A stretch of DNA of 64,000 bases from Mesorhizobium sp. Pch-S (lineage in GTDB: Bacteria > Pseudomonadota > Alphaproteobacteria > Rhizobiales > Rhizobiaceae): NCBI RefSeq assembly GCF_004136315.1, contig NZ_CP029562.1:1488001-1552000 (forward strand), read 5' to 3'. The notes below the pieces were generated by a model. It was not told the origin of the DNA. It was given only the letters and a program-made list of their open reading frames with translations, and made no database searches. The position numbers were made by a program, and so were the translations under genes. Positions 1-43,001 of this stretch are shown piece after piece (position 1 is the first letter of the stretch; every line of letters begins with the position of its first letter).

Positions 1-291
1 CCACTCTTTTCGGAGCTCTGATGTCAGGTCACCTGGTGACCAGGCCACTCGACGCATTGCTGCTTTGCTGACGGCGTCAAGACAATTGCTGACCGTCGCC
101 TCCACCAAATTGTATAACTGGAGATATACGCTTGAATTCAGAATCCTCTGTTGTGGCGCCGTGACTGTGGGACCGTTGTCGCCCAACCGCGGGACACCTG
201 ACTGAACAAGCTTCTCGATACCATCGATCAGCTCTAGATATGCGACGATCTCACCGAACCGCTCGTCGAAACGATCCGAAAGCTCACTCAT
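1..291 (-). CDS. HEPN-family protein (MAE_28990/MAE_18760-like), truncated by the window edge
   Basis: An open frame begins with ATG at 291 and stays open to base 1, giving 97 codons of an incomplete protein. The ATG overlaps the stop of the DUF262 gene (ATGA), so the two are translationally coupled. The N-terminal part shows an acidic helix, then the stretch GPTVTAPQQRILNSSVYLQL followed by YNLVEATVSNCLDAV. This resembles the start of the MAE_28990/MAE_18760-like HEPN nuclease family, which is often found beside DUF262 genes. The catalytic Rx4-6H motif of HEPN RNases would lie further downstream and cannot be seen. Function as a toxin-like RNase effector is inferred from family and context. 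Confidence 0.72.
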   Translation of the reverse strand, partial: MSELSDRFDERFGEIVAYLELIDGIEKLVQSGVPRLGDNGPTVTAPQQRILNSSVYLQLYNLVEATVSNCLDAVSKAAMRRVAWSPGDLTSELRKEW

Positions 292-1364
292 TGGGCTGCT
301 GCGAGCAGAGCAGCTCGCACGAACTCGATACGCCCTTCAAGCTTCGCACGAGTGTTCGCAGCGTCGGAGGTGGTCTTCTTGCTGAAGACATCACTGGCGA
401 GCCATTCGGCCGTGTCTGGCACAGTGTCGAAAATTGCTGGGTTTTCCTCCATCGCCCTGTGGCTGCCAATCGCAATCGCTTCATACCGCGCGCGCGGCGT
501 GCTGTTCGGATTGGAGGGCTTTCGGAACCCCAGAGGAAACGCACGTTGGACGAAGTCAAGCATTCGCTCAAAACGAGTTCGATATGCACCGATTAAATGT
601 GGCTCGGCTTGCATACGTTCGTTCATACGCTTGGTGTAGTCGAACATGAACTGTGCAGGACGCTCACGATATCCCTCAAGACCGTCGCCGTAGGCGAAGA
701 AACGAGTCACCAGCTCCTCGCGAATACGCTCTTTTTCTGCCTTCCCGGAAACTGGAGCGAGCTGAGCGAAGAGGTCCAAACGTGATAGCTCCAAGACCAA
801 CTCAAGAAACGGCCCGCGCAGTGCTCCCCGGCGCACTTCCGCCGTATTGGCTACCTTGCTGCCGGTGTTGATGCGTTCGAACATATCGAAGCGAGCTTGA
901 TCGTCCGCGTGCTCGTTAAGAACGATGCCGCGGATAGACCGATTCTTGATTTTCCTCTGACGCGAAGGCGAAAGGTCCGTGAACCGCGTTCCTTCTAAGG
1001 AAGGCAGCTCATCGAGCTGATCGATTTTCATGTTGCCGAGAATGTATTCATGCAGAGTGCGGAGGCGTTGGGATCCGTCAACGATCTCCAATTTTCCGTT
1101 ACCCATTTCCCAGAAGAACAGAAATGGGATCGGAAGCCCCATGATCAGGGACTCGATGAAGCGGGATTTCCGCTTCGGCTCCCAGGTAAACTCTCGCTGA
1201 TAGGCAGGGATGACAAATTCTTCGCGAGCCATTTTCTCGGCTAGGAGTTCGACCGAGTACTCGGTCATGTAGAAGTCGATTCGGCGCGAGCGATCAACGA
1301 TCTCGGCTTCCGCCGCAGCCAACTGCTCATTCGAAATGAGGTGTAGACGGGATTGTCGTGCCAC
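288..1364 (-). CDS. DUF262 domain protein (ParB/GmrS-like)
   Basis: The 358-residue product carries the DUF262 core: VIPAYQREFTW at residues 51-61, ESLIMGLPIP at 71-80 and the VDGSQR signature at 95-100 (usually DGQQR). DUF262 is a ParB-like nucleotide-binding/nuclease fold found in the GmrSD modified-DNA restriction enzymes and in many defence loci. The C-terminal half is helical and has no recognisable HNH (DUF1524) nuclease, so on its own it looks like a sensor or NTPase subunit. It starts 21 bases after the methyltransferase stop and overlaps the HEPN gene by four bases, which makes a three-gene leftward operon. The partner nuclease is probably the HEPN protein. Confidence 0.85.
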   Translation of the reverse strand: MARQSRLHLISNEQLAAAEAEIVDRSRRIDFYMTEYSVELLAEKMAREEFVIPAYQREFTWEPKRKSRFIESLIMGLPIPFLFFWEMGNGKLEIVDGSQRLRTLHEYILGNMKIDQLDELPSLEGTRFTDLSPSRQRKIKNRSIRGIVLNEHADDQARFDMFERINTGSKVANTAEVRRGALRGPFLELVLELSRLDLFAQLAPVSGKAEKERIREELVTRFFAYGDGLEGYRERPAQFMFDYTKRMNERMQAEPHLIGAYRTRFERMLDFVQRAFPLGFRKPSNPNSTPRARYEAIAIGSHRAMEENPAIFDTVPDTAEWLASDVFSKKTTSDAANTRAKLEGRIEFVRAALLAAAQ

Positions 1365-1385
1365 GCGAAATCCTAGCAGTCCTGC

Positions 1386-2498
1386 TCAACGCAGGTTGAG
1401 TTGGCCTTCAAGGGGGGCTGTGCCATTTCGCACAGCATTGACATGCGCGAGAATCGACCGTCCGATCGCCTCGCCCAATTTCGGTGGGACCGCGTTTCCT
1501 ATAAGCGTTCCGAGACGTTCAAAAGTGACCTCTTCACCCTCAGCCAGGAAGCTGTATTCCTTAGGGAAAGACTGAATGATCGCCGCCTCTCGAAGACTGA
1601 TCGCGCGATCCTGTTCAGGATGTCCGAATCGACCGTTACCAAAACCGTAGCACTGTGTAGTCATCGTCGGAGCAGGTTTGTCCCATTCCATCCGCCCATA
1701 TACGGAAGGATAGGTCTTGCCGGTACTTCTGCGGTGACATGGTGCTCGCAACTCTTCCGGCCAATCACGCCACGTACCCCCAGGCGCCGAAGCGCGAATT
1801 CGCTTAAGATTGACTTCGCCCAACCCTGCACTGGCATGAAGAGGGTCGTCGGTCGATTTCTCTCCGGCTGCGATACGCGGGAGCTCACCTATAGCATCCT
1901 TGACAGTCAGCTTTAATTTACTCTCTGAAGCTTTCAGTTCGATCGGCCCAAGCAGTGATGCAAGAAGAACGAGGCGACGACGGCTCTGAGGGACTTGATA
2001 TTCCTCACACGCCACTTCGCACCAAGAGACCTTGTATTCTGCCTCCTGCAACGCCGCGATGAAATCCTCCCAGACCTGCTGGTTGGCCAGGCCTGGCACA
2101 TTCTCCATCGTCACGATCTCAGGTTTGAGGGCGATGGCCAAACGTTGAAACTGCTTGAGCAGTTCCCAACGACCATCGACCGACTTTCGACTTTGCGAAT
2201 ATGTCGAGAACGGTTGGCATGGTGCACATCCAGCGAGCACGCGAACATCTGCCTCACCGAACCAACGCTCAAGGTCAGCAGGCGTCACATCTTCCACGTT
2301 GCGACATGCAAAAATCGCTCCGGTATTTTCTTCAAGAGGATGTTTGCAACTCGGATCTAGATCGACACCAGCCTTAACAGTCAAGCCTGCCGATTTGAGG
2401 CCGTAGGCCAACCCACCGGCACCACAAAAAAGATCAATGACCGCGGTAGTGAAGCCGCCAGCATCAACCTGAAGAATCCCGTTCGCGTTCATCGTCAT
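1386..2498 (-). CDS. DNA (cytosine-5) methyltransferase
   Basis: The 370-residue protein shows the ordered C5-methyltransferase motifs: motif I IDLFCGAGG (about 21-29, SAM binding), motif IV GCAPCQPFS with catalytic Cys94, motif VI ENV (132-134), motif VIII QSRRR (171-175) and motif X GNAVPP (334-339). The target recognition region lies about residues 186-280. It transfers a methyl group from SAM to C5 of cytosine in a specific, here unknown, DNA site. It is the first gene of the leftward operon with DUF262 and HEPN, and is divergent from the GHKL ATPase. No conventional restriction endonuclease is visible in the part of the locus inside the window. The ATG at 2498 is chosen; a second Met two codons on is possible. 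Confidence 0.93.
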   Translation of the reverse strand: MTMNANGILQVDAGGFTTAVIDLFCGAGGLAYGLKSAGLTVKAGVDLDPSCKHPLEENTGAIFACRNVEDVTPADLERWFGEADVRVLAGCAPCQPFSTYSQSRKSVDGRWELLKQFQRLAIALKPEIVTMENVPGLANQQVWEDFIAALQEAEYKVSWCEVACEEYQVPQSRRRLVLLASLLGPIELKASESKLKLTVKDAIGELPRIAAGEKSTDDPLHASAGLGEVNLKRIRASAPGGTWRDWPEELRAPCHRRSTGKTYPSVYGRMEWDKPAPTMTTQCYGFGNGRFGHPEQDRAISLREAAIIQSFPKEYSFLAEGEEVTFERLGTLIGNAVPPKLGEAIGRSILAHVNAVRNGTAPLEGQLNLR

Positions 2499-3089
2499 AT
2501 GTTAGACGAACGAGAGGTGATTTGCCTAGCTGTAAAGTGTCGCCACACACCATATACAATTGCGTGACAGCTGTCCAATCCCACCAGCCGATGCGGACGC
2601 ACCCGGCTATCTGCCTATGTCTATTCAAGCCCAGCGAAATGACCTCGCCTCGCGTTCAATGGTAGGATTCGAGATACTCCGCCAACGCTGCAGCGATTTC
2701 GAACCCGAACCAATTATCCTCCCTGACCGTAACACTCTCCAAATCACCGTCCACCAACACCACGATCGCTCCAGCACCTTAATCGCAACTATCCACCTCC
2801 GCCGCAGGTCAAATCGAGCAAGAATGGCTTGCGTACGCCAATCACCTAGATGATACATTAGCTCCTCCAGTATTAAGATACGGGATGGCGATGGCTTACT
2901 ATCGGAAAATATATTGCCTCACCGACTTCTACATTTCCATCGCGCGGCACGAGGAACTCAGGAGAGAATGCCCACAGTGTCACAAGCTTGAATCACGAAT
3001 ATAACTTCCCCGATCAGCACGAGATAGGCGTGGGTCCGCCCGCGCCGTCGGGAGTACTGAAACCAATCTGCAAATGAGATCGCCGAGAC
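2499..3089. other. Divergent intergenic region between methyltransferase and ATPase genes
   Basis: About 590 bases, AT-richer than the rest of the window. It must carry the promoters of both divergent transcription units. Apart from the damaged small reading frame at 2656-2858, no convincing gene, tRNA or repeat is seen. Confidence 0.5.
2656..2858 (-). pseudogene. Small hypothetical gene, apparently frameshifted
   Basis: A strong ribosome-binding site (GGAGGAG) lies just before an ATG at 2858. The frame from that ATG reads sensibly for about 25 codons (MYHLGDWRTQAILARF...) and then becomes Trp/Arg/Ser rich. From about 2778 a different frame gives a natural-looking C-terminus, LVDGDLESVTVREDNW then FGFEIAAALAEYLESYH, ending at a TGA at 2656-2658. 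The simplest reading is one small gene broken by a shift near 2780. No family is recognised. The alternative is that both pieces are chance open frames. Confidence 0.33.
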
Positions 3090-4769
3090 ATGCTAGACCA
3101 GGACAAGGAAAATTTCCGCTTCGAGATATCATTGAGTGTCCTCAATCATCTTGGACGCAATCTCTATCGCAACTTCATCACCGTTCTTGGAGAAGCAATC
3201 TCGAACGCTTGGGACGCGGACGCAAAAAATGTCTGGATCGACATCAATCGAGAAACGTCGCATTTTTCTATCAAGGATGACGGCATTGGCATGTCTGCCG
3301 AGGATTTTCAGACAAAATTTCTGAAAATTGGATACTCGAAACGGTCCGACGGTGCGACGCAAACGAATAGAAAACGTCCTTACATTGGCGCCAAAGGTAT
3401 AGGGAAGCTCGCACTACTTTCGTGTGCGAAACGAATCTCAATCATTTCGAAAAAAGACGACACTGATTACGTTGGAGGCGTGATCGACAACTCAGGCCTA
3501 GACAAGGCGATCACCCAAGACCTCACGCCGGAACAATACCCACTCGAAGCGCTTGATTTGGGTCTATTCAAAAACCTCACAAGAGACCATCGTCACGGAA
3601 CCATCATATTTTTCGAAGGAGCAAAAGAGCAAATAAAGAACTCGGTAGCCCATATTAGAAAGATGATCGCCTTATCATTCAAATTCGCACTGATCGACAA
3701 GGAGTTTTCGATATTCGTTAACGACAAAGAAGTGACCTTTAAAGACATCCAAGACGTTCTTGATGCCACAGAATTCACCTGGCTAATCAACGAAGCGGAC
3801 GATCTTTTTCTCCCTGAGATGAAAAAACTTAAAGCCTCCCCGAAAAGACTCACTACTACTCTAAGCCTAACAGGATTTATCGCCTCAGTTGAAAAGCCCA
3901 AAAACTTAAAAATAACGGGAACGGACGAGCGGGCAACCATAGACTTATTTGTAAATGGTCGCCTTCGTGAGAAGAATATCCTTCGACATATCCCATCACA
4001 ACGGGTCGTCGAAAGTTATATCTACGGCCAAATACATTTTGATGCGATGGACACAGGAGCAACCATAGACCCCTTCACTAGCAGTCGAGAGGGCGTAGTC
4101 GAAGACGACAGGAATTTCGCAGCCCTATTAGAATATCTGAAACACGATGCGCTACCAGCGATATTCGACCAATGGGATGATCTACGCCTGGGACGCGGAG
4201 AGGAAGGCGACGAAGACAATCCAAGAAAAACAAAGAAGCAAAGGCGAGCACGAGACCTGTACGCAGCAGCAAGGGAAGAGTATGAGCCCGATGAAGGGAC
4301 GGAGAATAAAGATGAAGTAGATAATTGGCTTGACTACCTTCGATCTGACGCTGAATACAACATAACATCCTATGTAGATTGCTTTTTGTCCGAAAATCTA
4401 CTAAGGGAATACATTAGAACATATAAACTACCCCTCACTTCCGGCATATCCAAAGAGATAAGCGAATGGCAAGGGAGGGAAGCGATCAATTTAGGGGCAG
4501 CCAATATCAGCTATGCTGTGAGAAGGGATAGCGATGGTTTAACTTATTTGGGTATGGATGCGTTGGCGGTAACGGTTGAAGGATCCAAAATTGCAAACGG
4601 CAACCAGTCCCTCTGGACTGATGCAATACAGTTCAAACCTGTGCGGAATGTAGTTGGCCATACAGGTCTTTTGACAAAAAATGCAAAGACTGGACTGACA
4701 CTAACATTTGAGAATATAAAATCCAGAGTAAGAACTCTTATTTCTTCGAAGCCGAAATCATCTCCTTAA
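3090..4769 (+). CDS. GHKL-fold ATPase (MORC/HSP90-like) with C-terminal HEPN-like motif
   Basis: The 559-residue protein has a GHKL ATPase domain at its N-terminus: the N-box helix with Glu35 and Asn39 in LGEAISNAWDADA, the G1 box DDGIGM at 63-68 and the G2 box IGAKGIGKLAL at 99-109. The linker around 385-410 is rich in Glu, Lys and Arg. Near the C-terminus, RNVVGH (519-524) matches the RNxxxH active-site pattern of HEPN RNases. GHKL proteins of the MORC/MutL group are known in prokaryotic restriction-modification loci, and sacsin combines GHKL and HEPN domains. It is divergent from the methyltransferase operon and AT-rich like it, so a shared defence role is inferred. The start is the first ATG; no strong ribosome-binding site precedes it. 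Confidence 0.8.
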   Translation: MLDQDKENFRFEISLSVLNHLGRNLYRNFITVLGEAISNAWDADAKNVWIDINRETSHFSIKDDGIGMSAEDFQTKFLKIGYSKRSDGATQTNRKRPYIGAKGIGKLALLSCAKRISIISKKDDTDYVGGVIDNSGLDKAITQDLTPEQYPLEALDLGLFKNLTRDHRHGTIIFFEGAKEQIKNSVAHIRKMIALSFKFALIDKEFSIFVNDKEVTFKDIQDVLDATEFTWLINEADDLFLPEMKKLKASPKRLTTTLSLTGFIASVEKPKNLKITGTDERATIDLFVNGRLREKNILRHIPSQRVVESYIYGQIHFDAMDTGATIDPFTSSREGVVEDDRNFAALLEYLKHDALPAIFDQWDDLRLGRGEEGDEDNPRKTKKQRRARDLYAAAREEYEPDEGTENKDEVDNWLDYLRSDAEYNITSYVDCFLSENLLREYIRTYKLPLTSGISKEISEWQGREAINLGAANISYAVRRDSDGLTYLGMDALAVTVEGSKIANGNQSLWTDAIQFKPVRNVVGHTGLLTKNAKTGLTLTFENIKSRVRTLISSKPKSSP

Positions 4770-4916
4770 TATTTAATTATATTAATCAAAAAACGCAAAC
4801 CAGTGTCGTCGAACAAATATTCGTCGAGAAGATGACACTGCGTCGCTCCACCGCAACTTAACTAATTTCGCATGCGATGCGCAGGTCCCCCAGCAACACT
4901 GCGTGCTGTCAAGTTT

Positions 4917-5033
4917 GACGACGATGTTGGCGGGCACTGCCTGCAGACGACCAGAGGTGCGAACGGCGCGGACGAGATGGTCGCCCATGTGCGCGAGGCC
5001 AAGCCAGGCTAGCGGCATGCGCTGAACCGTCTC
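4917..5033 (-). pseudogene. LysR-family C-terminal fragment (remnant)
   Basis: Reading leftward from 5033, about 39 codons give ETVQRMPLAWLGLAHMGDHL and then VRAVRTSGRLQAVPANIV. This aligns without gaps to the intact LysR regulator at 5692-6594 (its ETVRRMTLAGVGLGRMGDY segment and onward). Similarity ends abruptly on both sides and there is no HTH part. It is a relic of a second LysR gene or of a partial duplication, lying at the edge of the AT-rich segment. Confidence 0.7.
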
Positions 5034-5069: not shown

Positions 5070-5642
5070 ATGACCAATCTGTGCCTGCCAGCCAAAGCGG
5101 AAGTGGAGATCGTGAGGGAGTTGGATGTCTCCAGAATTGGGTATCTGGACGAAGAACTGGCCTCCTCCGAAGACGGAATAATGCTGAACCACATCTATTT
5201 CGATACCAGAGGATGTGAGGCCGCAGATGTCGAATTGATTTTGGAGGAGGAACTTGAGCTCCTTGAAAGTTTGGAAGAAGCGGGTTGGAACACACCCGAA
5301 GCGTCGGAGATCATCGACTCTCACTTCTCCGATTGGTCAGAATTAACGGGTTTCGACGTTGGAATTGGCGGCGCTGTCCTTGCCCTGTCTGCAGCTGGTG
5401 CAACCCCGATCACTTCCTGCAATGGCGGCACCATCGGTATCGAACATCACTCAAGCTCAGTCCCTCACATATTGTTCGCTGGATCTGCGACAATGAATGC
5501 TTCGGCTATTCATCAAGCGATCGAGATAGCTGATCTGGGTTCGGTTTATAGTGGAGAGTTCGGCGAAATCTACGCCGATAACGTCCTCAAATTCCCTACC
5601 TTCGCCAGAGCATTGATCGAAGCGTTGATGGGCAAGGACTAG
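5070..5642 (+). CDS. Hypothetical acidic protein
   Basis: A 190-residue product with a good ribosome-binding site (GGAGG eight bases before the ATG). It is acidic, with a Glu-rich helix at about 50-72 (ILEEELELLESLEEAG), a central Gly/Ala-rich segment and the short motif TSCNGG. No signal peptide or membrane span is seen and I do not recognise a family. It sits alone between a LysR fragment and the intact LysR gene, at the junction of the acquired segment with the core-like region. Base composition is intermediate. It may belong to the acquired segment; no function is proposed. Confidence 0.7.
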   Translation: MTNLCLPAKAEVEIVRELDVSRIGYLDEELASSEDGIMLNHIYFDTRGCEAADVELILEEELELLESLEEAGWNTPEASEIIDSHFSDWSELTGFDVGIGGAVLALSAAGATPITSCNGGTIGIEHHSSSVPHILFAGSATMNASAIHQAIEIADLGSVYSGEFGEIYADNVLKFPTFARALIEALMGKD

Positions 5643-8318: not shown

Positions 8319-9533
8319 ATGAGCACTATGATGGATAGCAAAGGCGCCGCCGCGGCGGCGACCCCTTCCGCCCGGTGGGCACTGCTGGCGCTGGCGATCG
8401 GCGCCTTCGGCATCGGCACCACGGAATTCTCGCCGATGGGGCTGCTGCCGGTGATCGCGCAAGGGGTCGACGTGTCGATCCCGACGGCCGGGCTGCTGAT
8501 CAGCGCCTATGCGATCGGCGTGCTGGTCGGCGCGCCGTTCATGACGCTGGCGTTCAGCCGCTTCGGCAAGCGCACGGCGCTGATGCTTCTGATGGCCATC
8601 TTCACCATCGGCAACCTGATGTCGGCGATGGCGCCGGGCTATTTCACGCTGCTCGCCGCCCGCCTCGTCACCAGCCTCAACCATGGCGCCTTCTTCGGCC
8701 TCGGTGCCGTGGTGGCGGCGAGCGTGGTGCCGAAGGAGAAGCAGGCCAGCGCGGTCGCCGCCATGTTCATGGGGCTGACCATCGCCAATATCGGCGGCGT
8801 GCCGGCCGCCACCTGGGTCGGCCAGCAGATCGGCTGGCGCATGGCCTTCGCCGGCACGGCCCTGATCGGTCTCCTCGCCATCACGGCGCTGTGGCTGGCG
8901 CTGCCGAGAGGCGAGCGCGGCCAGATGCCGGATGTGAAGCGCGAGCTGCGGGTGCTGACGCGGCCGGCCGTGCTGCTTGCCATGGCCACCACGGTGCTGG
9001 GTGCGGGTGCGATGTTTTCGCTCTACACCTATGTCGCGCCGACGCTGGAAACGCTGACCGGCGCCTCCGGCAGCTTCGTGACGCTGGCGCTGGCGCTGAT
9101 CGGCGTCGGCTTCACCATCGGCAACTGGCTGGGCGGCCGGCTGGCCGACTGGTCACTCGACGGCGCCACCAAGATCTTCCTCGCCGCGCTGGCGCTGATC
9201 ATGTTCATGCTGCCGCTGCTGTTTGCCAGCCATATCGGCGTCGCCATCGGCCTGCTGGTCTGGGGCGGTGCGGCCTTCGCCATCGTGCCGCCGGTGCAGA
9301 TGCGGGTGATGGAGGCGGCGGCCGAAGCACCCGGCCTCGCCTCCTCGATCAATGTCGGCGCCTTCAACCTCGGCAACGCGCTGGGTGCTGCGCTCGGCGC
9401 CGCCGTCATCAGCCTCGGCCTCGGCTACGCCGCCGTCTCCATCGCCGGCGGCCTGCTCGCCGCGGCCGGACTGGGTCTGGTGTTCGTGGGTGGCAGGCAG
9501 AAGGCGAGGACGATGGCGGTGTGCGGGGCCTGA
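8319..9533 (+). CDS. MFS transporter, DHA1-type drug/sugar efflux
   Basis: A 404-residue inner-membrane protein with about 12 hydrophobic spans and the DHA1-family start (ALLALAIGAFGIGTTEFSPM) typical of the AraJ/YdhP group of proton-coupled exporters. The loop between helices 2 and 3 carries the family motif as FSRFGKRTALMLLM. The ATG at 8319 precedes a short Ala-rich cytoplasmic leader. It stands alone between two palindromic repeat elements. Export of small toxic compounds or sugars is the family role; the substrate is unknown. Confidence 0.9.
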   Translation: MSTMMDSKGAAAAATPSARWALLALAIGAFGIGTTEFSPMGLLPVIAQGVDVSIPTAGLLISAYAIGVLVGAPFMTLAFSRFGKRTALMLLMAIFTIGNLMSAMAPGYFTLLAARLVTSLNHGAFFGLGAVVAASVVPKEKQASAVAAMFMGLTIANIGGVPAATWVGQQIGWRMAFAGTALIGLLAITALWLALPRGERGQMPDVKRELRVLTRPAVLLAMATTVLGAGAMFSLYTYVAPTLETLTGASGSFVTLALALIGVGFTIGNWLGGRLADWSLDGATKIFLAALALIMFMLPLLFASHIGVAIGLLVWGGAAFAIVPPVQMRVMEAAAEAPGLASSINVGAFNLGNALGAALGAAVISLGLGYAAVSIAGGLLAAAGLGLVFVGGRQKARTMAVCGA

Positions 9534-9629
9534 GGCAGGGCGCCAAGTTCGCGCGCTGCCCGGGCCTGGCGTTATGGCTGGTGAAGGCGTTCGCCGCGCC
9601 GGGCGTTTAATGCCGAGGGCGTGGCGCTT

Positions 9630-9986
9630 CTATCTCCCCCCTTGCGGGGGAGCCTGGTTCGCCACAGGCTTAAAAGGTACGAATGCCCGAGGCCATAGGG
9701 CGCGGCGCCTCTATCTCCCCCCTTGCGGGGGAGAAAGGATTTTCACGATCTTAGACGAGCACGCCCGCAGGGCGGCGCAGGCTAAGTCGTAGAAAATCCA
9801 AGAGAGGGGATATTCAGCTGAGCGGCTGATATTTTTGGATACCGAGAAATTCCTTGCCAACGTTGTGCCGGCATATCCCCTCTCTTGCGATTTCTAGCAC
9901 TTAGACTGCGCCGCCCTAAAGGGCGTGCTCGTCTAAGATGCTGAAATCGCTTTCTCCCCCGCAAGGGGGGGAGATAGAGGGCGGCG
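9630..9986. repeat. Long palindromic repeat A, copy 1
   Basis: Left arm CTATCTCCCCCCTTGCGGGG (present twice, near 9630 and 9710) and a right arm that is its inverse near 9950-9975. Between them, inverted segments around AGAAAATCCAAGAGAGGGGA and CATATCCCCTCTCTTGCGA make a long interrupted hairpin. Related copies lie at 26203-26604 and (half element) 15180-15298. Confidence 0.88.
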
Positions 9987-10008
9987 TAGGCTCGGTGCCG
10001 GACATTGC

Positions 10009-10099
10009 AAGAAAAGGCCGGCGCAAGCGCCGGCCGGTGATCCGGTCGAGATCAGCGACAGATCGGAAAGCCGTCGCATACCCATCTACTTGAATCACC
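10009..10099 (-). ncRNA. Candidate structured small RNA with intrinsic terminator
   Basis: On the minus strand, GGTGATTC (10099-10092) pairs perfectly (one G-U) with GGATCACC (10043-10036), closing a ~64-nt structured segment. This is followed at once by a GC-rich hairpin GGCCGGCGC-TT-GCGCCGGCC (10035-10016) and a U-rich tail, the form of an intrinsic terminator. A TATACT-like -10 box lies just upstream at 10101-10106, although it sits a few bases too close for a start exactly at 10099. No coding potential is convincing. I do not recognise the RNA family. Confidence 0.45.
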
Positions 10100-10258
10100 A
10101 AGTATAAGCCAAGCCTTACCACAGTGACGGCCACCCGGGTTTCAGCATTCCCGGGCAAGCCTGCTTGACTCTATTTCCGCGAGAGTGCTGAATATGGTTA
10201 ACGGGCGTTAATTCTCCTTGCATGGGCGCAAGGCTGGGGAACTGGGCTGGGGGCTGGC

Positions 10259-11239
10259 ATGAGAAGCAGAGCTTCTTCATGGGCGTTTGTTTTATTCATC
10301 ACACTTGGCGGCTGTTCGGCACTCACGTCAGAAGACAAGTCTTCGGAAGGCGTGCCTTACCACCTGCCGCTGTCGCTGATCCGCTACACGGTGGACCAGG
10401 GCGCCAGGACCGCGAAGATCGACACGATGGACGTGGTCGACAAGCACACCCGCTACCTGGCCTATCGCGAGAACGGTTTCGCCGACGAGAACGTCTGCGT
10501 CGACCGCACCAGCACCGGCCTGCTGAACAAGGTCTATTTCGGTTCGCAGGACCGCACACCCGACATCCTGCTCAACATAAGCCAGCTCCTGGCCGAGGGG
10601 TTCCAGGCCGACGGCGCCAGGAAATCACCGCAGGCGGAAGCCGCCAGCGCGGGCTGCAGTGGAACGGCTGTGTCGCCATGGATGGACCCTTATGACGAAG
10701 AGGCGCTGGCGGCGTTCAACCGGCAGCTGTGCGGAACCAGGATCAAGGTGCCGCGCGAGCTGTTCCACACCGGTCCCGCCGTGCAGTGCCCCAAGGATGC
10801 CGTCTGCTTCGCGACGAAGAGCGATTTCTTCGCCGACCTGGTCAAGCCGGACGGCGCCGTGGTGTCGCCCACCAACAAGATCGCGATCGCCACGCCGCGG
10901 GATATCGGCTGGATCAAGGTGCGCGAGGCTTTCTTCAACAAGCGCATCACCCAGCTGGATTTCGACAACGGCGTGCTCACCACCATGCGCGTCAGGAAGG
11001 AAAGCGAGATCCTGGGCCTGTCGCAATTGCCCCTGAACGTGGTCGAACGTGTCCTCGCCGTGCCGGGCAATGCCATCGGCATGGCCTTCGGTACTTATCA
11101 GGAAAAGCTGTTCTACCTGCAAAGGCGCAAGGAACTGCACGAAGCCAATTCTGCCACGGCGCCCGCGGCGCCACCGGCGGAGCCGGCGGTCTACACGGAC
11201 CTGAAATGCGCGGCCGGGGCAGCCGCCGCAGACAAGTAG
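10259..11239 (+). CDS. Putative lipoprotein of a secreted-protease cluster
   Basis: A 326-residue protein with a signal peptide ending in a lipobox (ITLGGC, Cys at about residue 19), so it should be lipid-anchored in the periplasm or outer membrane. No catalytic domain is recognised. There are several Cys residues (ENVCVD, RQLCGT, QCPKDAVC) that could form disulphides, and an Ala/Pro-rich C-terminal tail. It is 25 bases upstream of the S8 protease gene and in the same orientation, so probably co-transcribed with both proteases. A role as anchor, inhibitor or partner of those proteases is only inferred from position. Confidence 0.82.
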   Translation: MRSRASSWAFVLFITLGGCSALTSEDKSSEGVPYHLPLSLIRYTVDQGARTAKIDTMDVVDKHTRYLAYRENGFADENVCVDRTSTGLLNKVYFGSQDRTPDILLNISQLLAEGFQADGARKSPQAEAASAGCSGTAVSPWMDPYDEEALAAFNRQLCGTRIKVPRELFHTGPAVQCPKDAVCFATKSDFFADLVKPDGAVVSPTNKIAIATPRDIGWIKVREAFFNKRITQLDFDNGVLTTMRVRKESEILGLSQLPLNVVERVLAVPGNAIGMAFGTYQEKLFYLQRRKELHEANSATAPAAPPAEPAVYTDLKCAAGAAAADK

Positions 11240-11264
11240 CAGCCCGCGCACGGGGTTCGAGGCG

Positions 11265-13514
11265 ATGTTCGACAGCAAGGCAGCCGGTTTCGTCCTCGCC
11301 ATCAGCCTCGGCCTGGCAGGCCCGGCAGCGGCGGACGAGAAGGTGCTGGTGCTGCGGATCAAGCCCGGCGAGCTGACCAGGGAGACCGCGCAGTTCATCG
11401 GCGAGAACGGCAAGCTGACGACCGTCAATTCCGACAGGCCGCGTACGATCCAGAACATCGTCCAGAGCATCTGCGCCACCGCGCCGCCGGCCTTCATCGT
11501 TGCCGTACAGGCGGCCAACAAGAACAGCGCCTTCGACTATGCAACGCAGATCGCGGCCGGCCAGAACATCCTGATGCCGCCCTGCCCACCGAAGCAGACG
11601 ACTTCGCTCCTGGCCCGCAACGTGCAGCCGGGCGACACGGTGTGGGGCTATTACAAGACCGGAACGATCGGCGCGGATTTCGCCCCGAAATATGCGCTCG
11701 ACGTCCCGCCCGACAATTATGCGCCGCCGCTGAACGACGCCCAGGTTGTCGCGATGTGGGATCGCGACATCAGCGACGTCACCTCCGACTCCATCTCGAC
11801 CAAACAGGTCGTCGGCGCCTTCCCGCTCGGCCCGAACAACCATCTCGTCAGGCGCAACATCCTGGACACGCTAGGGGTGGGCGCGAAGTTCGACAGCTCC
11901 GGCAAGCTGTTCGCCGAGACGGGCCTGGCGATCAGCGCGGACCCGGACACGAGCTTCGTCGACATGTTCCAGCGCGCGAACCCGCGCATCGGCTCCGCCG
12001 ATCAGCTGAAGCCGGGAGAGATCGTGCTGGTGCCGGACCAGACCCCGCAGGAATATGTGCTGCCGCTGCGCGATCCGGCCGAGAGCACCAAACTCGCCTC
12101 GCTGTCGCCGGAAGCCTTCACCAAAAAGCTCGGGACCCCGGTGACGGACGTCATGGAGACGACCGATTTTCGCTTCTTCAAGCGGCTCGCCGACAAATGC
12201 GTTCCCGAAGACGCCGCCAGGATGAGCACCGTGCTTGCCGGCGCCCGGCAGCTTCTGGAAGAGAACTGGAAACAGGCCGACCAGCAGTCGGCAACGGTGG
12301 CGCCGGAAATGGTGTTCGTCGACAGCGGCATCTTCAAGCCGACCGAACTTCCCGCGCACCCGGCCCTGCTCAAGAGCGTCGATCAAAGCTCCCCGGCGAG
12401 CCTGGCCAGTTCTCCCAGCGAAGCGGAGCTGGAACCGCCGAAACTGCTGCCCGATGCCATGCACGGCACCAATGTCGCCGCGCTGGCGCTGGGCACCAGC
12501 GACTTCGCCAAGCTGGCCCGGTCGATCGGGTACCGGATGAAGGTCCGTGCCTTCAGGGCATTCACCGAATCCACGACGCTGGCGCTGCGCCCCGACGGCT
12601 CCATCACCATCGTCGACGGAAAGGCGGACGTCGTCGTCCATACGGTCGATCGCGACCGGATTTTCGATGCCATCAAATATTCGGCGGACAGCATCGTCAC
12701 CCTCTCCTTCGGCCGGGAAAAACCCATCGACGAGCTTCGCGCCAAGCTCGACCCGCTGTCGCAGACGCTGTTCATCGTGGCGGCGGGAAACGACCACAAA
12801 TCGCTCGACACGATCCCGCTTTTTCCGGGCCGGCATGGCGGCGGCGAGGCATTCAACATCATGACCGTCGCCTCCATCGACGGCGACAGGAAGCTGTCGG
12901 GCTTCTCCAACTGGAGTTCGGATTTCGTCGACATCGCCGCGCCCGGCTGCGGCGTCGCGACGCTTTCCTACGACAAGGACCAAAGCGCCTTCTTCGGCGA
13001 AACGGTGAACGGCACGTCGTTCAGCGCACCGCAGGTGTCCTATACGGCGGCGCTGATCAAGGCGGTGCGGCCGAGCTATACGGGGGCCCAGATCAAGGCC
13101 CGGCTGCTTGCCGGCTCCGACATCGAACCGGCATTGACCGGCTCGGTGCAGGAGGGCCGTGTCCTCAACATGGTCAAGGCCCTGGCGCTGCAGCACGATG
13201 TCGTCGACGTCAGGAAGGCGAATGGCGAGCGCGAGCTCCGCTTCGGACAGCTGAAGCCCGAGCTGAAGCCCGACCAGTTCTGCAAGGCTGCGCCCGACAT
13301 AGGCAATCTCAGGATCCTGAAGGTCATCCCGGCCTTCGACGAACGCGACGCGAAGCCCGGAACGACGACGATCAACTTCGCCGACCCCGGCGGGCTGGTG
13401 AAGTCGGCGACCTGCGAATCGAAGGACTTCCAGGTGACGCTGCACGAGCTATCCGGCGCAACGGTCCAGTTCTCCATGGGGGAGATCAATGACATCACGC
13501 CCGCCTGGCGCTGA
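11265..13514 (+). CDS. Secreted S8 (subtilisin-like) serine protease
   Basis: A 749-residue protein with an N-terminal signal peptide (cleavage near AAADE, residue 23-24). The subtilisin triad is complete: Asp353 in VFVDSGI, His400 in MHGTNVAA and Ser585 in NGTSFSAP, with oxyanion Asn509 in AAGND. The 300 residues before the protease domain include two stretches resembling LysM-type phrases (VQPGDTVWGYYKTG and LKPGEIVLVPDQ), so cell-wall or glycan contact is possible. It lies downstream of the lipoprotein, and its 3' end overlaps the metalloprotease gene by 26 bases, which implies coupled expression. The long pro-region suggests zymogen control. Confidence 0.9.
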   Translation: MFDSKAAGFVLAISLGLAGPAAADEKVLVLRIKPGELTRETAQFIGENGKLTTVNSDRPRTIQNIVQSICATAPPAFIVAVQAANKNSAFDYATQIAAGQNILMPPCPPKQTTSLLARNVQPGDTVWGYYKTGTIGADFAPKYALDVPPDNYAPPLNDAQVVAMWDRDISDVTSDSISTKQVVGAFPLGPNNHLVRRNILDTLGVGAKFDSSGKLFAETGLAISADPDTSFVDMFQRANPRIGSADQLKPGEIVLVPDQTPQEYVLPLRDPAESTKLASLSPEAFTKKLGTPVTDVMETTDFRFFKRLADKCVPEDAARMSTVLAGARQLLEENWKQADQQSATVAPEMVFVDSGIFKPTELPAHPALLKSVDQSSPASLASSPSEAELEPPKLLPDAMHGTNVAALALGTSDFAKLARSIGYRMKVRAFRAFTESTTLALRPDGSITIVDGKADVVVHTVDRDRIFDAIKYSADSIVTLSFGREKPIDELRAKLDPLSQTLFIVAAGNDHKSLDTIPLFPGRHGGGEAFNIMTVASIDGDRKLSGFSNWSSDFVDIAAPGCGVATLSYDKDQSAFFGETVNGTSFSAPQVSYTAALIKAVRPSYTGAQIKARLLAGSDIEPALTGSVQEGRVLNMVKALALQHDVVDVRKANGERELRFGQLKPELKPDQFCKAAPDIGNLRILKVIPAFDERDAKPGTTTINFADPGGLVKSATCESKDFQVTLHELSGATVQFSMGEINDITPAWR

Positions 13515-14502
13515 AGCGCTGCCGCCGCGCAAGCGCTTCGCAACGCAACCGTGCCGGAACGGCGCCGGCCGCGTCGCCCCGACCTTTCTGGCAACGACCC
13601 TGCTGGCGACGACGTTGCTGGCGACGTTGGGCCTGCCGTCCACGGCGTGGGCCGAAGGCAAGCCGGCCGCGGTGGAACGGCCGGAGCAGCTGCTCGGCGC
13701 GCCCGGTTCCGTCTCGATCGACGTCAACGGGTCGGATGTCGAGGTGCCCTATGCGATCACCACGGATGGATATGCCGTTCTCGAGGGCGACATGATCATC
13801 GGCGGGGCGCAGGAGCTGTTCCAGCTGCAGAAGATGCAGGAGGACGAGGCCCGGAAAACACAGAAGCTGACGCTGGCGAGCGTCGACGCTTTCCAGCTCT
13901 TCGGCCTCTTCGACATAGCGGGCCGCGTCTGGCCCAAGGGCATCGTCGCCTACCGCATCAATGCCAATGTCGATGCCGACGGCAAGAAGCGCCTGGATGC
14001 CGCCATGGCGATGTGGACCAGCACGACGAAGATCCAGTTCGTCTCCGCTGTGGCGGGCACGCGCGCCTATGTCGAGTTCGTGCACGCGAACAACGCCGAC
14101 AACTGTTCCTCCGAGGTCGGCTTCCTCGGCAGGCGGCAGCTGATCTACATGGGCGACAATTGCGACGCGGGCAACATGGCGCACGAGATCGGCCACGCGC
14201 TGGGGCTGGGGCATGAGCAGATGCGCAGCGACCAGGACAAGTTCGTGACGATCAAGACCGCCAACATCATGAGCGGATATCTGAAGTTCTTCACGCCGAA
14301 GCCGTGGGCCTATGTCGATGCCGGGAGCTACTGCTACGGCTCGCTCATGCACTACGGTCCGAAGATGTTCTCGAGCAATAATTTTCCGACGATCGTGCCC
14401 AAGGACCCATCAGCCAGGATCGGCCAGCGGGACCGTGTCGCCTCCTGCGACCAGAGGGTGATCCAGGCGGCCTATCAGGCACAATTCGCGGCGCGGCCCT
14501 GA
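13489..14502 (+). CDS. Astacin-like (M12A) zinc metalloprotease, exported
   Basis: The 337-residue product has the extended zinc motif HEIGHALGLGHE (His232, Glu233, His236, His242) and a Met-turn SLMHYG (Met287, Tyr289), both diagnostic of astacins. Cys residues in CSSEVG, DNCDAG and SYCYG suit the disulphides of a secreted enzyme. A hydrophobic segment at about 31-55 ending STAWAEG is the likely signal peptide; the 30 residues before it are unusually long, so the true start may be further in. The start codon lies inside the S8 protease gene (26-base overlap in another frame). Bacterial astacins are secreted endopeptidases; the substrate is unknown. Confidence 0.9.
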   Translation: MTSRPPGAEALPPRKRFATQPCRNGAGRVAPTFLATTLLATTLLATLGLPSTAWAEGKPAAVERPEQLLGAPGSVSIDVNGSDVEVPYAITTDGYAVLEGDMIIGGAQELFQLQKMQEDEARKTQKLTLASVDAFQLFGLFDIAGRVWPKGIVAYRINANVDADGKKRLDAAMAMWTSTTKIQFVSAVAGTRAYVEFVHANNADNCSSEVGFLGRRQLIYMGDNCDAGNMAHEIGHALGLGHEQMRSDQDKFVTIKTANIMSGYLKFFTPKPWAYVDAGSYCYGSLMHYGPKMFSSNNFPTIVPKDPSARIGQRDRVASCDQRVIQAAYQAQFAARP

Positions 14503-15039: not shown

Positions 15040-15179
15040 GATCTCCCTCCATGCCGCGGCCCTGTCTGTGGCGGCATGGCGGCCGTGTCAACACGGTGCG
15101 ATGGGGATGCGTCAGATTGCGAAGGGAATGCCGGGGACGGGCTTTCGCCGGCTTCGCTCATTTGCAAAGCCCTCAGCTG

Positions 15180-15298
15180 CAAATCCCCTCTCTTGGATTT
15201 TCTACGACTTAGACTGCGCCGCCCTAAAGGGCGTGCTCGCTAAGATCGTGAAAATCCTTTCTCCCCCGCAAGGGGGGAGAGAGAGGCGCCGCGCCCGG
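15180..15298. repeat. Palindromic repeat A, half element
   Basis: This is one arm of repeat A (ATCCCCTCTCTTGGATTTTC through TCTCCCCCGCAAGGGGGGAG) without the opposing arm. It occupies most of the gap between the secreted protein and the secretion adaptor gene. Confidence 0.85.
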
Positions 15299-15331
15299 CC
15301 TTCGGCCATAGCCCTCGGCGCTACGCCTTCG

Positions 15332-16684
15332 CTACTTCTGCCGGAACCCCTTCTCGAACTGCATGGCCAGCGGGCCGACGAGATAGTCGAGCGCGGTGCG
15401 CTGCACGGTTTCGATCATCACCGTGGTCGGCATGCCGGGGTAGAGATGCACCTCAGGCAACCCGGTCAGTTCCTTTTCGTCGATGCGCACCAGCGCGACG
15501 TAATAAGGGGCGTCGTTGCGTTTATCGATCAGCCGGTCGGCCGAGACCTGGATCACCGTGCCGTGCACCACCGGGGTGATGCGCTGCTTGTAGGCGGTGA
15601 GGTGGACATTGGCGGTCATGTCGGGATGCACGCTGGCGATGTCCTCGACGGCGATCTGGGCGTCGATGATGAGGGAATCGCGGTCCGGCACGATGTCCAT
15701 GATCTTCTCGCCGCGCATGATGACGCCGCCGACCGAAAAGGCGGTCAGCCCGACGACCTCGCCCGAATAGGGCGAGCGGATGTCGATGCGGCTGAGCACG
15801 GCCTTCGCATTGGTGAGCTTGGGGATGACCTCGAGCAGCTTGGCCTGGGTGTCGCGCAGGTCCTTCGACACTTCCGTCATGCGCTCGTTGTCGAGCCCGG
15901 CCATCTGCTGCAACTGCTCGGCGATCGCCTGCCGGGCCCTGGCGATGTTGGCGGCCGTCTCGGCGGCCTGGCCTTCCAGCCCGGTGCCGCTGCGTTCCAG
16001 CTGCAGGTAGCGCGACTTGGAGATCAGGCCCTGCTTCAACAAGCCGGTCAGGCTCTCGCGCTCCGCCTGCACGGAGGCATATTGCTGGCGAAAGGCCTTG
16101 GCTTCGGCTTCCGAGCCGGTGATCTGCGCCTCCAGCTGCGCGATCTTCTCCTTGATGACGGCGCGCTGCCCGGCAAGCAGGGCAAGGCGGCTGTCGAACT
16201 GGTGGATCTGGCTGCGCCAGATGCCCTCGACATTCGGGTTGTCGCGCGCCGCCTGTTTCAGGTCGTCCGGCATGGTCAGGCCCGAGGCGTCGGCCAGCTC
16301 GGCCTTCAGCCGCTCCTCGGTCGCCCTCAGCACCAGAAGCTGCTGGTCGAGCACATTGTATTCGGCGCGCGCCTGGCTGTCGTCGAGCCGGATCAGCACG
16401 TCGCCTTCGCTGACGCGGTCGCCTTCGCGCACGTTGAGCTGCTTGACGATGCCGCCATCGAGATGCTGGATCGACTTGCGGTTGCCCTCGACGCGGACAT
16501 AGCCGTTGGCGACCACGGCGCCGTTGAGCGGCGCGGTCACCGCCCAGGCGCCGAAGCCGCCGAAGAAGGTGGCGATGATCGCCCAGCCGGCGATCGCGGC
16601 CGTGCGCATGGAATCGCTGGCGGCCGGGGTGTCGGCGGCAGGCTTGGCACCCATGCGCGTCTTGTTGCGGACATCGATCTTCAT
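15332..16684 (-). CDS. Type I secretion membrane fusion protein (HlyD/PrsE family)
   Basis: A 450-residue periplasmic adaptor. A single transmembrane helix lies at about 28-50 (TAAIAGWAIIATFFGGFGAW), followed by a biotinyl-lipoyl-like half motif, a long coiled coil (about 100-290, many Ala/Glu/Gln heptads) and a C-terminal beta barrel. It links the inner-membrane ABC exporter to an outer-membrane TolC-type channel. Its ATG overlaps the stop of the ABC exporter gene, so the two are coupled. The probable cargo is the giant repeat protein encoded upstream in the same direction. Confidence 0.93.
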   Translation of the reverse strand: MKIDVRNKTRMGAKPAADTPAASDSMRTAAIAGWAIIATFFGGFGAWAVTAPLNGAVVANGYVRVEGNRKSIQHLDGGIVKQLNVREGDRVSEGDVLIRLDDSQARAEYNVLDQQLLVLRATEERLKAELADASGLTMPDDLKQAARDNPNVEGIWRSQIHQFDSRLALLAGQRAVIKEKIAQLEAQITGSEAEAKAFRQQYASVQAERESLTGLLKQGLISKSRYLQLERSGTGLEGQAAETAANIARARQAIAEQLQQMAGLDNERMTEVSKDLRDTQAKLLEVIPKLTNAKAVLSRIDIRSPYSGEVVGLTAFSVGGVIMRGEKIMDIVPDRDSLIIDAQIAVEDIASVHPDMTANVHLTAYKQRITPVVHGTVIQVSADRLIDKRNDAPYYVALVRIDEKELTGLPEVHLYPGMPTTVMIETVQRTALDYLVGPLAMQFEKGFRQK

Positions 16685-18429
16685 TGTGCCGCCCTCGCCA
16701 TCGTGGCGCCCTGGGCGCCGGCCGGGGCCGCCGGCTCGGCTTCCGGCCTGACCGTTGCCAGGCGGGTGAGCTGGCCGATCACCTCGTTCTTCGGCCCGAA
16801 CAGCTCGACCGCGCCGTCCTTCATGACGAGCAGCTTGTCGACCACGGCGAAGGTGTTGGGCCGGTGCGAGATGATGATCACCGTGGTGCCGCGCTGCTTG
16901 CAGGCGGCAATGCAGGCCAGCAGCGCGGTGTCGCCTTCGGAATCGAGATTGGAGCTCGGTTCGTCCAGCACCAGGATGGCCGGGTTGCCGTAGACGGCGC
17001 GGGCAAGCGCGATGCGCTGGCGCACGCCGCCCGACAGCACGGCGCCGCCGGCGCCGACATTGGTTTCATAACCCTTGGGCAGGCGCAGGATGATGTCGTG
17101 CACGCCGGCCAGCCGCGCCGCCGCGATGACGTCATTGTCCTCGCCGTCGTCGCGGAAGCGGGCGATGTTGGCGGCGACCGTGTCGGCGAACAGCTCGATG
17201 TCCTGCGGCAGGTAGCCGAGATGCGGGCCGAGCTCCTCGCGCGGCCAGGTCGAGACATCGGCGCCGTCGAGCCGCACCGTGCCGGCGATGGGGGCGAGCA
17301 CGCCGACGATCTGGCGCGCCAGCGTCGACTTGCCGGCGCCCGACGGGCCGATGATGCCGAGCACTTCGCCGGCGGCGAGGCTGAGCGAGACGCCGCGCAG
17401 GATCGGGTTGCGCGGCAGGCCGTAGACCAGGCCCTCGACCGACAGCCGTCCTTCCGGCCGCGGCAGCGCCAGCGCCGGCGCGGCGGCGGGATTGGTGGCA
17501 AGCAGCATCTCGATGCGCTGGCGGGCGTTGCGCGCCGCGATCATGTTGCGCCAGGCGCCGACGATCTGCTCGACCGGCTGCAGCGCGCGGCCGAGCAGGA
17601 TCGAGGCGGCGAACATGACGCCGATGGTCTGCAGCCGTTCGATGACCAGATAGGCGCCGAGCCCGAGGATCAGCGACTGCATGGCAAGGCGCAGGAAGCG
17701 GATGAGGCTCTGGTTGGTGGCGGCGCGGTCGCTGGCGGTGACCTGGCGCTCGATGACGCGGTCGCGGTCGATGTTCCAGCGCGTCAGCAGGCCGGGCATC
17801 ATGCCCATGGCGCGCACCACCTCGGCATTGTGCAGGCTCATGTCGGCGAAGGCGTAGTTGCGGGAGGCGAGATCGGCCGATTCCGCCATCGGGCGCTGCA
17901 CGCGCCATTGCCCGTAGACGGCAAGCGCCACCAGCGTGACCGCCGAGGCGAGCGAGAACCAGCCGAGCAGCGGGCTCATCAGGAAGATGACGAGGATGTA
18001 GATCGGCGCCCAGGGCAGGTCGAACACGGCGTGGATGCCGGGCCCGGTCATGAACTGGCGGTAGGTGTCGAAATCGCGCAGCGTCTGGCTGCTCGCCGGC
18101 ACGCCCCTGGCCGACGAGGCCATGGTGGCGGTGAGCAGGCGCCCCGCCATCTCGCGGTCGAGCCGCACGCTCGCCCTGGTCAGCACGCGCGCCCGCACGA
18201 AGTCGAGGCCGGCGAAGCAGGCGAGCGCGAACATCAAGACGATGGTCAGCATCACCAGCGTGACATGGCTGCCGCTCGAGATGACCCGGTCGTAGACCTG
18301 CAGCATGTAGAGCGGGCCGGCGAGATAAAGCAGGTTGATGGCGAGGCTGAAGGCGAGCGCGGTGGCGAAGTAGCGCCGGCAGCGGCGAAGCACGTCGCGC
18401 AGTTCACTGGATTTCGGCTCTGTCAGCAT
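16681..18429 (-). CDS. Type I secretion ABC permease/ATPase (PrsD/HlyB-type)
   Basis: A 582-residue fusion of an N-terminal membrane domain with about six spans and a C-terminal ATPase. Walker A is GPSGAGKST (361-369), the signature is LSGGVRQR and Walker B is ILVLDEPSSNLD. There is no N-terminal C39 peptidase, so cargo is exported without leader cleavage, as in the PrsD/AprD group. It overlaps the HlyD gene by four bases and follows the repeat-protein gene, separated from it by a hairpin at 18514-18539. ATP-driven export of the repeat protein is inferred. Confidence 0.93.
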   Translation of the reverse strand: MLTEPKSSELRDVLRRCRRYFATALAFSLAINLLYLAGPLYMLQVYDRVISSGSHVTLVMLTIVLMFALACFAGLDFVRARVLTRASVRLDREMAGRLLTATMASSARGVPASSQTLRDFDTYRQFMTGPGIHAVFDLPWAPIYILVIFLMSPLLGWFSLASAVTLVALAVYGQWRVQRPMAESADLASRNYAFADMSLHNAEVVRAMGMMPGLLTRWNIDRDRVIERQVTASDRAATNQSLIRFLRLAMQSLILGLGAYLVIERLQTIGVMFAASILLGRALQPVEQIVGAWRNMIAARNARQRIEMLLATNPAAAPALALPRPEGRLSVEGLVYGLPRNPILRGVSLSLAAGEVLGIIGPSGAGKSTLARQIVGVLAPIAGTVRLDGADVSTWPREELGPHLGYLPQDIELFADTVAANIARFRDDGEDNDVIAAARLAGVHDIILRLPKGYETNVGAGGAVLSGGVRQRIALARAVYGNPAILVLDEPSSNLDSEGDTALLACIAACKQRGTTVIIISHRPNTFAVVDKLLVMKDGAVELFGPKNEVIGQLTRLATVRPEAEPAAPAGAQGATMARAAQ

Positions 18430-42721: not shown

Positions 42722-43001
42722 TTTTAAGACCCAGATCGCACTTCGGGATGACTGATTTGAATCAACCCGAGTACATCTTCAATATGGCTGCAATCGCCCA
42801 TACGTTTCATTGTTACCCGCCCATCCCATATGACTAAATCAAAGTAAAATCACACACCCAGCTCGCCAGCAAGCATCGCTCGTTGCTCAAATTAGAGGCT
42901 GTTAACACAGCTAACGGGATTGCTCGAAATTCAGCCCTTCGATTGAACCAGACATCCACCTGCTGCGTTGTCCGATGCCGACCCGCGCAAAGGAGGCCCG
43001 C

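Follow-up and report, generated by a model that had tools for sequence, protein, structure and literature searches.

The left end of the DNA analysed here, a window of 64,000 nucleotides from Mesorhizobium sp. Pch-S (contig NZ_CP029562.1, positions 1,488,001-1,552,000; genome of 6.6 Mb, single contig), raises the question of whether four neighbouring genes, coding for a C5-cytosine DNA methyltransferase (MTase), a DUF262 protein, a HEPN protein and a divergent GHKL ATPase, make up one defence system, as an original prediction from the sequence had proposed. Comparison with their relatives indicated that the MTase, DUF262 and HEPN genes form one conserved module with a Vsr endonuclease gene lying beyond the left window edge, while the GHKL gene constitutes another module, of other base composition and unlinked elsewhere to the first. 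That the locus is a defence island of the restriction type, centred on one C5 MTase that serves both modules, is a reading to which we give about even chances. The main genes are listed below; flank coordinates count from 12 kb left of the window, window position being flank position minus 12000.

1..291, minus strand: 5' part of the HEPN gene, which starts at 291 and runs past the left window edge
flank 11539-12291 (contig 1487539-1488291), minus strand: complete HEPN gene, 250 amino acids (aa), PF18737
288..1364 (flank 12288-13364), minus strand: DUF262 / GmrSD_N gene, 358 aa, GTG start, PF03235
1386..2498 (flank 13386-14498), minus strand: C5-cytosine DNA methyltransferase gene (P0003), 370 aa, PF00145
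3090..4769 (flank 15090-16769), plus strand: GHKL ATPase gene (P0004), 559 aa, PF13589
flank 11112-11621, first ATG at 11507, minus strand: Vsr endonuclease open reading frame (ORF), beyond the left window edge and adjoining the HEPN gene

The methyltransferase-DUF262-HEPN module

The predicted layout, a leftward operon with a 21-base gap between MTase and DUF262 genes, a 4-base ATGA overlap of DUF262 and HEPN genes at 288-291 and a divergent GHKL gene, was exact in the sequence, and the four proposed identities were borne out by Pfam (PF18737 HEPN_MAE_28990, E = 3e-24; PF03235 GmrSD_N, 7.8e-26; PF00145 DNA_methylase, 1.3e-48; PF13589 HATPase_c_3 for the GHKL protein, 6.1e-19), with Vsr matched at 1.3e-25. 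Once completed from the left flank, as had been suggested, the 250-aa HEPN protein (PF18737, 86.8 bits, cut-off 26.8) displayed an RNALAH (RX4H) motif at residues 187-192, in which R187, N188, L190, A191 and H192 were invariant in 29/29 aligned rows and position 189 was variable; we take RX4-6H to be the motif of the HEPN RNase site. The DUF262 protein scored 91.9 bits against PF03235 (cut-off 33.2) and carries a VDGSQR motif which, judged by eye, is similar to the GmrS-type nucleotide motif DGQQR. The Vsr protein exceeded the TIGR00632 cut-off (136.5 vs 97.85 bits). A PDB sequence search with the HEPN alignment returned three chance-level rows and no HEPN protein.

A profile of 29 HEPN proteins, searched in a genome collection, yielded 56 loci. 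DUF262 stood directly before HEPN in all 56. The pair had a C5 MTase nearby, from a single clade, in 55 of them; it was about 1.5 kb off in L038 and absent only from L057. The gene order was DUF262-HEPN-MTase in 50 of these loci and the window order, MTase-DUF262-HEPN, in five (L003, L004, L005, L047 and L054), all of them with Vsr, which precedes the MTase in L005; Vsr was within reach in 10/56 loci overall. The plasmid locus L093 has the window order as well. Viral contigs contained DUF262 in 11/11 HEPN loci and the MTase in 10/11, the eleventh being cut by the contig edge, and in nine of those ten the MTase was convergent, a third gene order. The hosts belong to Pseudomonadota, Actinomycetota, Cyanobacteriota, Bacteroidota, Planctomycetota, Chloroflexota and others. 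Closer to home, the HEPN protein was not found outside its own genome among 146 genus genomes, and metagenomic contigs encode close relatives of both the HEPN (up to 93% identity) and the GHKL protein (up to 85%).

The three-gene set was already catalogued in 2013: the accessible text of Anantharaman et al. (PMC3710099) describes an active MAE_28990 HEPN family, operonic with ParB nuclease and DNA methylase genes, and proposes that HEPN RNases associated with restriction-modification (R-M) are kept inactive by R-M subunits. In addition, the parts consulted of PMC10952713 and PMC9519451 define PD-T4-2 as a DUF262 plus HEPN system that guards E. coli from T4. The statement that no named system has exactly this set is uncontradicted for the four genes, although the three-gene set had been listed and the DUF262-HEPN pair corresponds to PD-T4-2. 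Our literature search found nothing joining HEPN, DUF262, restriction-modification and methyltransferase.

The likeness to PD-T4-2 suggests an alternative in which the DUF262-HEPN pair senses phage in some other way and the MTase regulates or accompanies it. PD-T4-2 does defend E. coli from T4 (PMC9519451, as consulted), and the PADLOC model PD-T4-2_A matched the DUF262 protein over nearly its whole length (7.1e-28, 95.7 bits), the best model being NsnA (3.1e-52), our literature search on NsnA/NsnB having found nothing relevant; no PD-T4-2 model in PADLOC matched the HEPN protein. Set against this, the MTase accompanies the pair in 55/56 genome loci and in two gene orders, with the third in viral contigs, and its target-recognition region is strongly conserved (see below), so that the mark seems to matter; we consider this alternative improbable.

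Vsr aside, the HEPN, DUF262 and GHKL proteins had no DUF1524, PD-(D/E)XK, HNH or GIY-YIG match (Pfam, E <= 0.1), and DUF1524 was likewise without a match in Vsr, the MTase and the next gene right of GHKL at the same threshold. The expectation that no conventional restriction endonuclease lies just past the left edge is contradicted only loosely, by the Vsr gene there, which codes for a mismatch endonuclease and not for a restriction enzyme. Since HEPN is the only recognised effector nuclease of the left module, which is restriction-like and recurrent, an RNA-cleaving end is plausible.

Conventional type II restriction, in which the DUF262-HEPN pair or the GHKL protein would cut unmethylated DNA at the site and the HEPN fold would be a DNase or a mere subunit, has to be weighed at this point. 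The DUF262 protein and the GHKL protein each have matches among the REase_II models of PADLOC, a table in PMC3710099 (consulted in part) names the partner 'ParB nuclease', and the accessible text of PMC5005818 reports a Chania MTase of GTCGAC type that overlaps a 735-bp predicted 'cognate REase' (restriction endonuclease). The latter figure corresponds to the HEPN gene size, a comparison by size only, and the label is itself a prediction. Moreover, the three proteins lack the nuclease matches named above, and HEPN motifs, among which we count RX4-6H, are those of a metal-independent RNase site, as far as the consulted part of the 2013 survey (PMC3710099) goes. Altogether, DNA cutting of the type II kind appears rather unlikely.

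The GHKL protein as a second module

A GHKL profile built from 28 relatives detected no GHKL protein in 57/57 DUF262-HEPN loci (L003-L058 from genomes, L093 from a plasmid), tblastn found none in 11/11 viral HEPN loci, and the HEPN profile found no HEPN gene in the GHKL loci searched with it. The recurrent neighbourhood of the GHKL gene and the three-gene operon that the original prediction had anticipated was therefore not seen. Its scheme holds in part: MTase, DUF262 and HEPN are well supported as a restriction-like module whose end is of the RNase type, without the GHKL gene. The four genes as one conserved system are ruled out by the same absence from relatives (57/57 and 11/11).

Base composition points in the same direction. 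GC content per kilobase was 53-56% over bases 1-3000 and 46-47% over 3001-5000, vs 58-71% across 5001-42000; all four genes are indeed AT-richer than their surroundings, as claimed, but not uniformly, the Vsr, HEPN, DUF262 and MTase genes having 54.0-55.2% GC vs 44.7% for the GHKL gene. This inequality argues for two arrivals, and the GHKL gene and the left module may well have come in separately.

The GHKL protein is intact, retains its ATPase motifs and has, as in MORC/paraMORC ATPases, a GHKL domain and a second, S5-like domain. Residues 9-372 matched the BbrUII/HgiDII model NF050001 (profile 1-367 of 659) at 291.9 bits, below its cut-off of 550, and other GHKL proteins of the window type scored similarly (L090, 275.7; L096, 288.5 bits, likewise below 550). 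Long GHKL proteins (649-677 aa) reached 703-801 bits in 8/8 tested and are thus BbrUII/HgiDII members, two of six scanned showing a weak SduA_C match, under cut-off, at the C-terminus. By its profile matches, the window protein belongs with the BbrUII/HgiDII restriction ATPases. Its C-terminal part is distinct:

4227..4754, plus strand: GHKL C-terminal domain, residues 380-555, all-helical, HEPN-like model, without a Pfam match
4644..4661, plus strand: RX4H motif, R519-N-V-V-G-H524, R and H invariant

Structural modelling gave an all-helical domain, whose top structural matches were Csm6 and other HEPN proteins, and R519 and H524 were invariant in 28/28 and 15/15 aligned rows; this domain is probably HEPN-like. 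For this domain Pfam gave no match at E <= 10, not even to PF09509, and hhalign against the window HEPN alignment gave only 0.1% and 1.3%.

A full-length GHKL protein of the window type occurred in its own genome only (289 class, 398 phylum, 146 genus and 394 family genomes, overlapping sets), and one genome of those scanned (G337) carried the long type, an NF050001 member; the class-level search gave partial matches in 50 other genomes, mostly short GHKL stretches. A large protein set contained at least 4405 GHKL relatives at E <= 0.001 among 8000 scored candidates. All six window-type loci with readable context (L090, L091 and L094-L097, L096 and L097 being near-copies and the L091 gene being split by IS1380) have a same-clade MTase directly upstream on the same strand, 47-57% identical to P0003. 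An MTase of this kind was present in 27 of the 28 GHKL loci, several of them near-copies, the exception being L061, a short stretch; the more distant L062-L088 and L116-L138 are not in this set. Both modules thus appear to use one clade of METHYLTRANSFERASE. Since the BbrUII/HgiDII relatives of the GHKL protein use the same MTase clade, a shared methylation site is a more likely link between the modules than one complex.

Two plasmids, L090 (Paracoccus) and L091 (Celeribacter), have the window-type GHKL gene and its MTase next to both a recombinase and another cassette, of Dcm-Vsr type; L091 also carries a restriction gene of the MvaI/BcnI type. The viral contigs L116-L138 encode a more remote group of GHKL proteins (345-729 aa, most of them 630-730), and in 22/23 the stretch analysed also has a C5 MTase, itself more distant. 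They perhaps represent additional GHKL restriction families that recognise other sites.

One methyltransferase and its recognition region

The genome has a single PF00145 gene, P0003 (E <= 1e-5), and a second MTase looked for in the 591-base divergent region between the modules was not found there. These two features are:

1608..1952, minus strand: target-recognition region of the MTase, P0003 residues 183-297 (184-298 in the script)
2499..3089: divergent intergenic region between the two modules, 591 bases

In a tree of 79 MTases (10 identical duplicates omitted), P0003 grouped with alphaproteobacterial DUF262-HEPN MTases (support 100/99), and four of the five different MTases of window-type GHKL loci formed a clade of their own (100/100), L096 standing apart. 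That P0003 might be the GHKL family's own MTase was ruled out by its grouping with alphaproteobacterial MTase-DUF262-HEPN-Vsr loci (100/99 and 100/100). The MTase neighbouring the window GHKL gene shares the recognition region, yet falls on trees among the DUF262-HEPN MTases.

Across these partners, the recognition region was better conserved than the catalytic part. Mean identities to P0003 were 62% vs 50% for 48 DUF262-HEPN MTases, 63% vs 50% for three window-type GHKL MTases (55% vs 42% for L096) and 58% vs 48% for 14 long-GHKL MTases, with 40% vs 36% for an outgroup of five; the six closest alphaproteobacterial MTases were at 70% vs 71%, so that this clade shows no excess in the recognition region. 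Within its core, P0003 was 67-82% identical to the partners compared and 96% identical to its close relative L003, disregarding L143 and L149, whose tblastn-coordinate translations contain 11 and 2 stops. According to the accessible text of PMC5867850, M.HgiDII is characterised as a GTCGAC 5-methylcytosine enzyme, to which M.BbrUII is related, the site of the latter having its source in PMC5005818 (also consulted in part). Because its recognition region resembles that of MTases beside NF050001 enzymes, and given the published M.HgiDII site, P0003 would be of the GTCGAC type and probably methylates GTCGAC. As it is the only C5 MTase of the genome, P0003 alone could protect the chromosome if the GHKL protein acts on such unmarked sites.

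Partners have also been exchanged within this MTase clade. In a second tree of 73 rows, from which three outgroup and 9 near-duplicate HEPN rows were removed and in which five MTases of the 11 viral HEPN loci plus L165 were included, the HEPN-partner label needed at least four changes (4-6 across bootstraps), well-supported branches forcing two of these, and a clade with 100/98 support mixed four HEPN and three long-GHKL partners. Consistently with such swaps, the P2-like phages PhiR44_1 and P24B2 carry, at the same spot behind the replication gene, an MTase of the same clade with a different partner: a convergent gene named ParaMORC3 by its depositors in PhiR44_1 (L166), and convergent HEPN and DUF262 genes in P24B2 (L164), whose MTase frame is broken in the record and was unused in the analysis. 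Nine records of Moraxella phages, Mcat24-Mcat32, have an MTase 54% identical to P0003. In Mcat32 (L165), the record examined, this gene converges on those for HEPN and DUF262, whose annotation is hypothetical.

These results bear on whether only the MTase-DUF262-HEPN-Vsr module works, the GHKL gene being a passenger unrelated to the rest of the island, or the remnant of a restriction system, an ATPase that has lost its own MTase. Such a passenger would explain why 0/57 DUF262-HEPN loci carry GHKL, why its GC content is 44.7 vs 54-55%, and why the window gene lacks the MTase that lies directly upstream in the six other window-type loci. On the other hand, the gene is intact, with its ATPase motifs and the C-terminal R and H kept, the MTase next to it is of precisely the clade that its family uses, with a conserved recognition region, and where no matching mark protects the host, a functional restriction ATPase would be expected to harm the cell or to disappear. 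We regard the passenger explanation as somewhat unlikely.

Setting, proposed mechanism and known systems

From left to right, the locus comprises phage-type early genes (plus strand), Vsr, HEPN, DUF262 and C5 MTase (all minus), a gap, and GHKL (plus). The left flank at 9123-11081 (plus strand) encodes a LexA-like repressor, a DUF1376 primosomal-type protein, a DnaA-C-like protein and a NusG-like antiterminator, presumably an early-gene set of the phage kind, which stops at flank 11081, 30 bases ahead of the Vsr ORF. The flank was not conserved in 20 relatives, with short matches only, in five. The setting is probably mobile and prophage-derived, and the defence locus seems to occupy the margin of a prophage remnant. 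On the other side, to the right of GHKL, a 190-aa ORF at 5070-5642 (plus strand, GC 51.3%) may belong to the island; it had nothing above the Pfam cut-off, and no model of NCBIfam, PADLOC or PHROGs matched it. Another AT-rich kilobase (GC 52.5%) lies at 42001-43000, in surroundings of 59-71% GC from 6 kb on.

In the mechanism that we propose for a shared-MTase island, the MTase would mark one site in host DNA, probably GTCGAC. The DUF262 protein, nucleotide-binding and GmrS-like, would detect DNA with the unmarked site and then free the HEPN protein, an RNase restrained by its partner until release. The GHKL module, a paraMORC-like DNA clamp, would independently detect the same unmarked site and trigger its own C-terminal HEPN-like domain. 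One methyl mark would switch off both modules, a single mark being suggested by the single C5 MTase of the genome, and Vsr would mend T:G mismatches produced by deamination of methylated cytosines. Cells would thus respond by cleaving RNA and ceasing to grow, the invading DNA remaining uncut. More tentatively still, one GTCGAC-type mark may guard the cell against two restriction modules, acquired independently and each ending in a HEPN RNase. RNA-cutting partners would then have replaced the BbrUII/HgiDII DNA cutter on more than one occasion, and this window would contain both kinds round its single MTase, a two-armed system that reads a mark on DNA and cuts RNA.

If this is true, a widespread module links methyl self-marking in the style of type II systems to the cleavage of RNA, its effector being interchangeable and its recognition site fixed. 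A single MTase would immunise the genome against two modules, easing their stacking in defence islands, and 'cognate REase' labels beside GTCGAC-type MTases would become questionable. The idea put forward in 2013 that HEPN domains are a suicidal arm of R-M systems (PMC3710099, as consulted) thereby becomes testable.

Among known systems, the MAE_28990 HEPN operons (PMC3710099) correspond to the same three-gene module, their ParB-like protein being DUF262; the text available to us mentions neither recognition site, MTase clade, gene orders and Vsr nor the sharing of MTases with BbrUII/HgiDII. GmrSD and BrxU, of type IV restriction, resemble the window in a DUF262 protein with a DGxQR-like motif, and differ in that the window has a cognate MTase and lacks a DUF1524 nuclease match. 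PD-T4-2 is the nearest experimentally tested relative found, with DUF262 and HEPN proteins and the matching model PD-T4-2_A. The window has a C5 MTase and Vsr in addition, and none of the PD-T4-2 models matched its HEPN protein. The fusion of a GHKL paraMORC with a Ymh-family HEPN domain (PMC3710099, accessible part) shares GHKL, a C-terminal domain of (in the window probable) HEPN type and restriction context with the window protein, the C-terminus of which, in contrast, matches no Pfam family, PF09509 included. BbrUII/HgiDII (NF050001, paraMORC3) has in common with the window the N-terminal GHKL module, the MTase clade and the shared recognition region; its proteins are about 650-680 aa vs 559 aa for the window GHKL protein, which ends in another domain, helical with RX4H, and has no co-directional MTase of its own. 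Compared with all of these, the new element appears to be the shared MTase, a single gene that brings together two partners which elsewhere serve one recognition specificity as alternatives, and which probably both end in HEPN domains.

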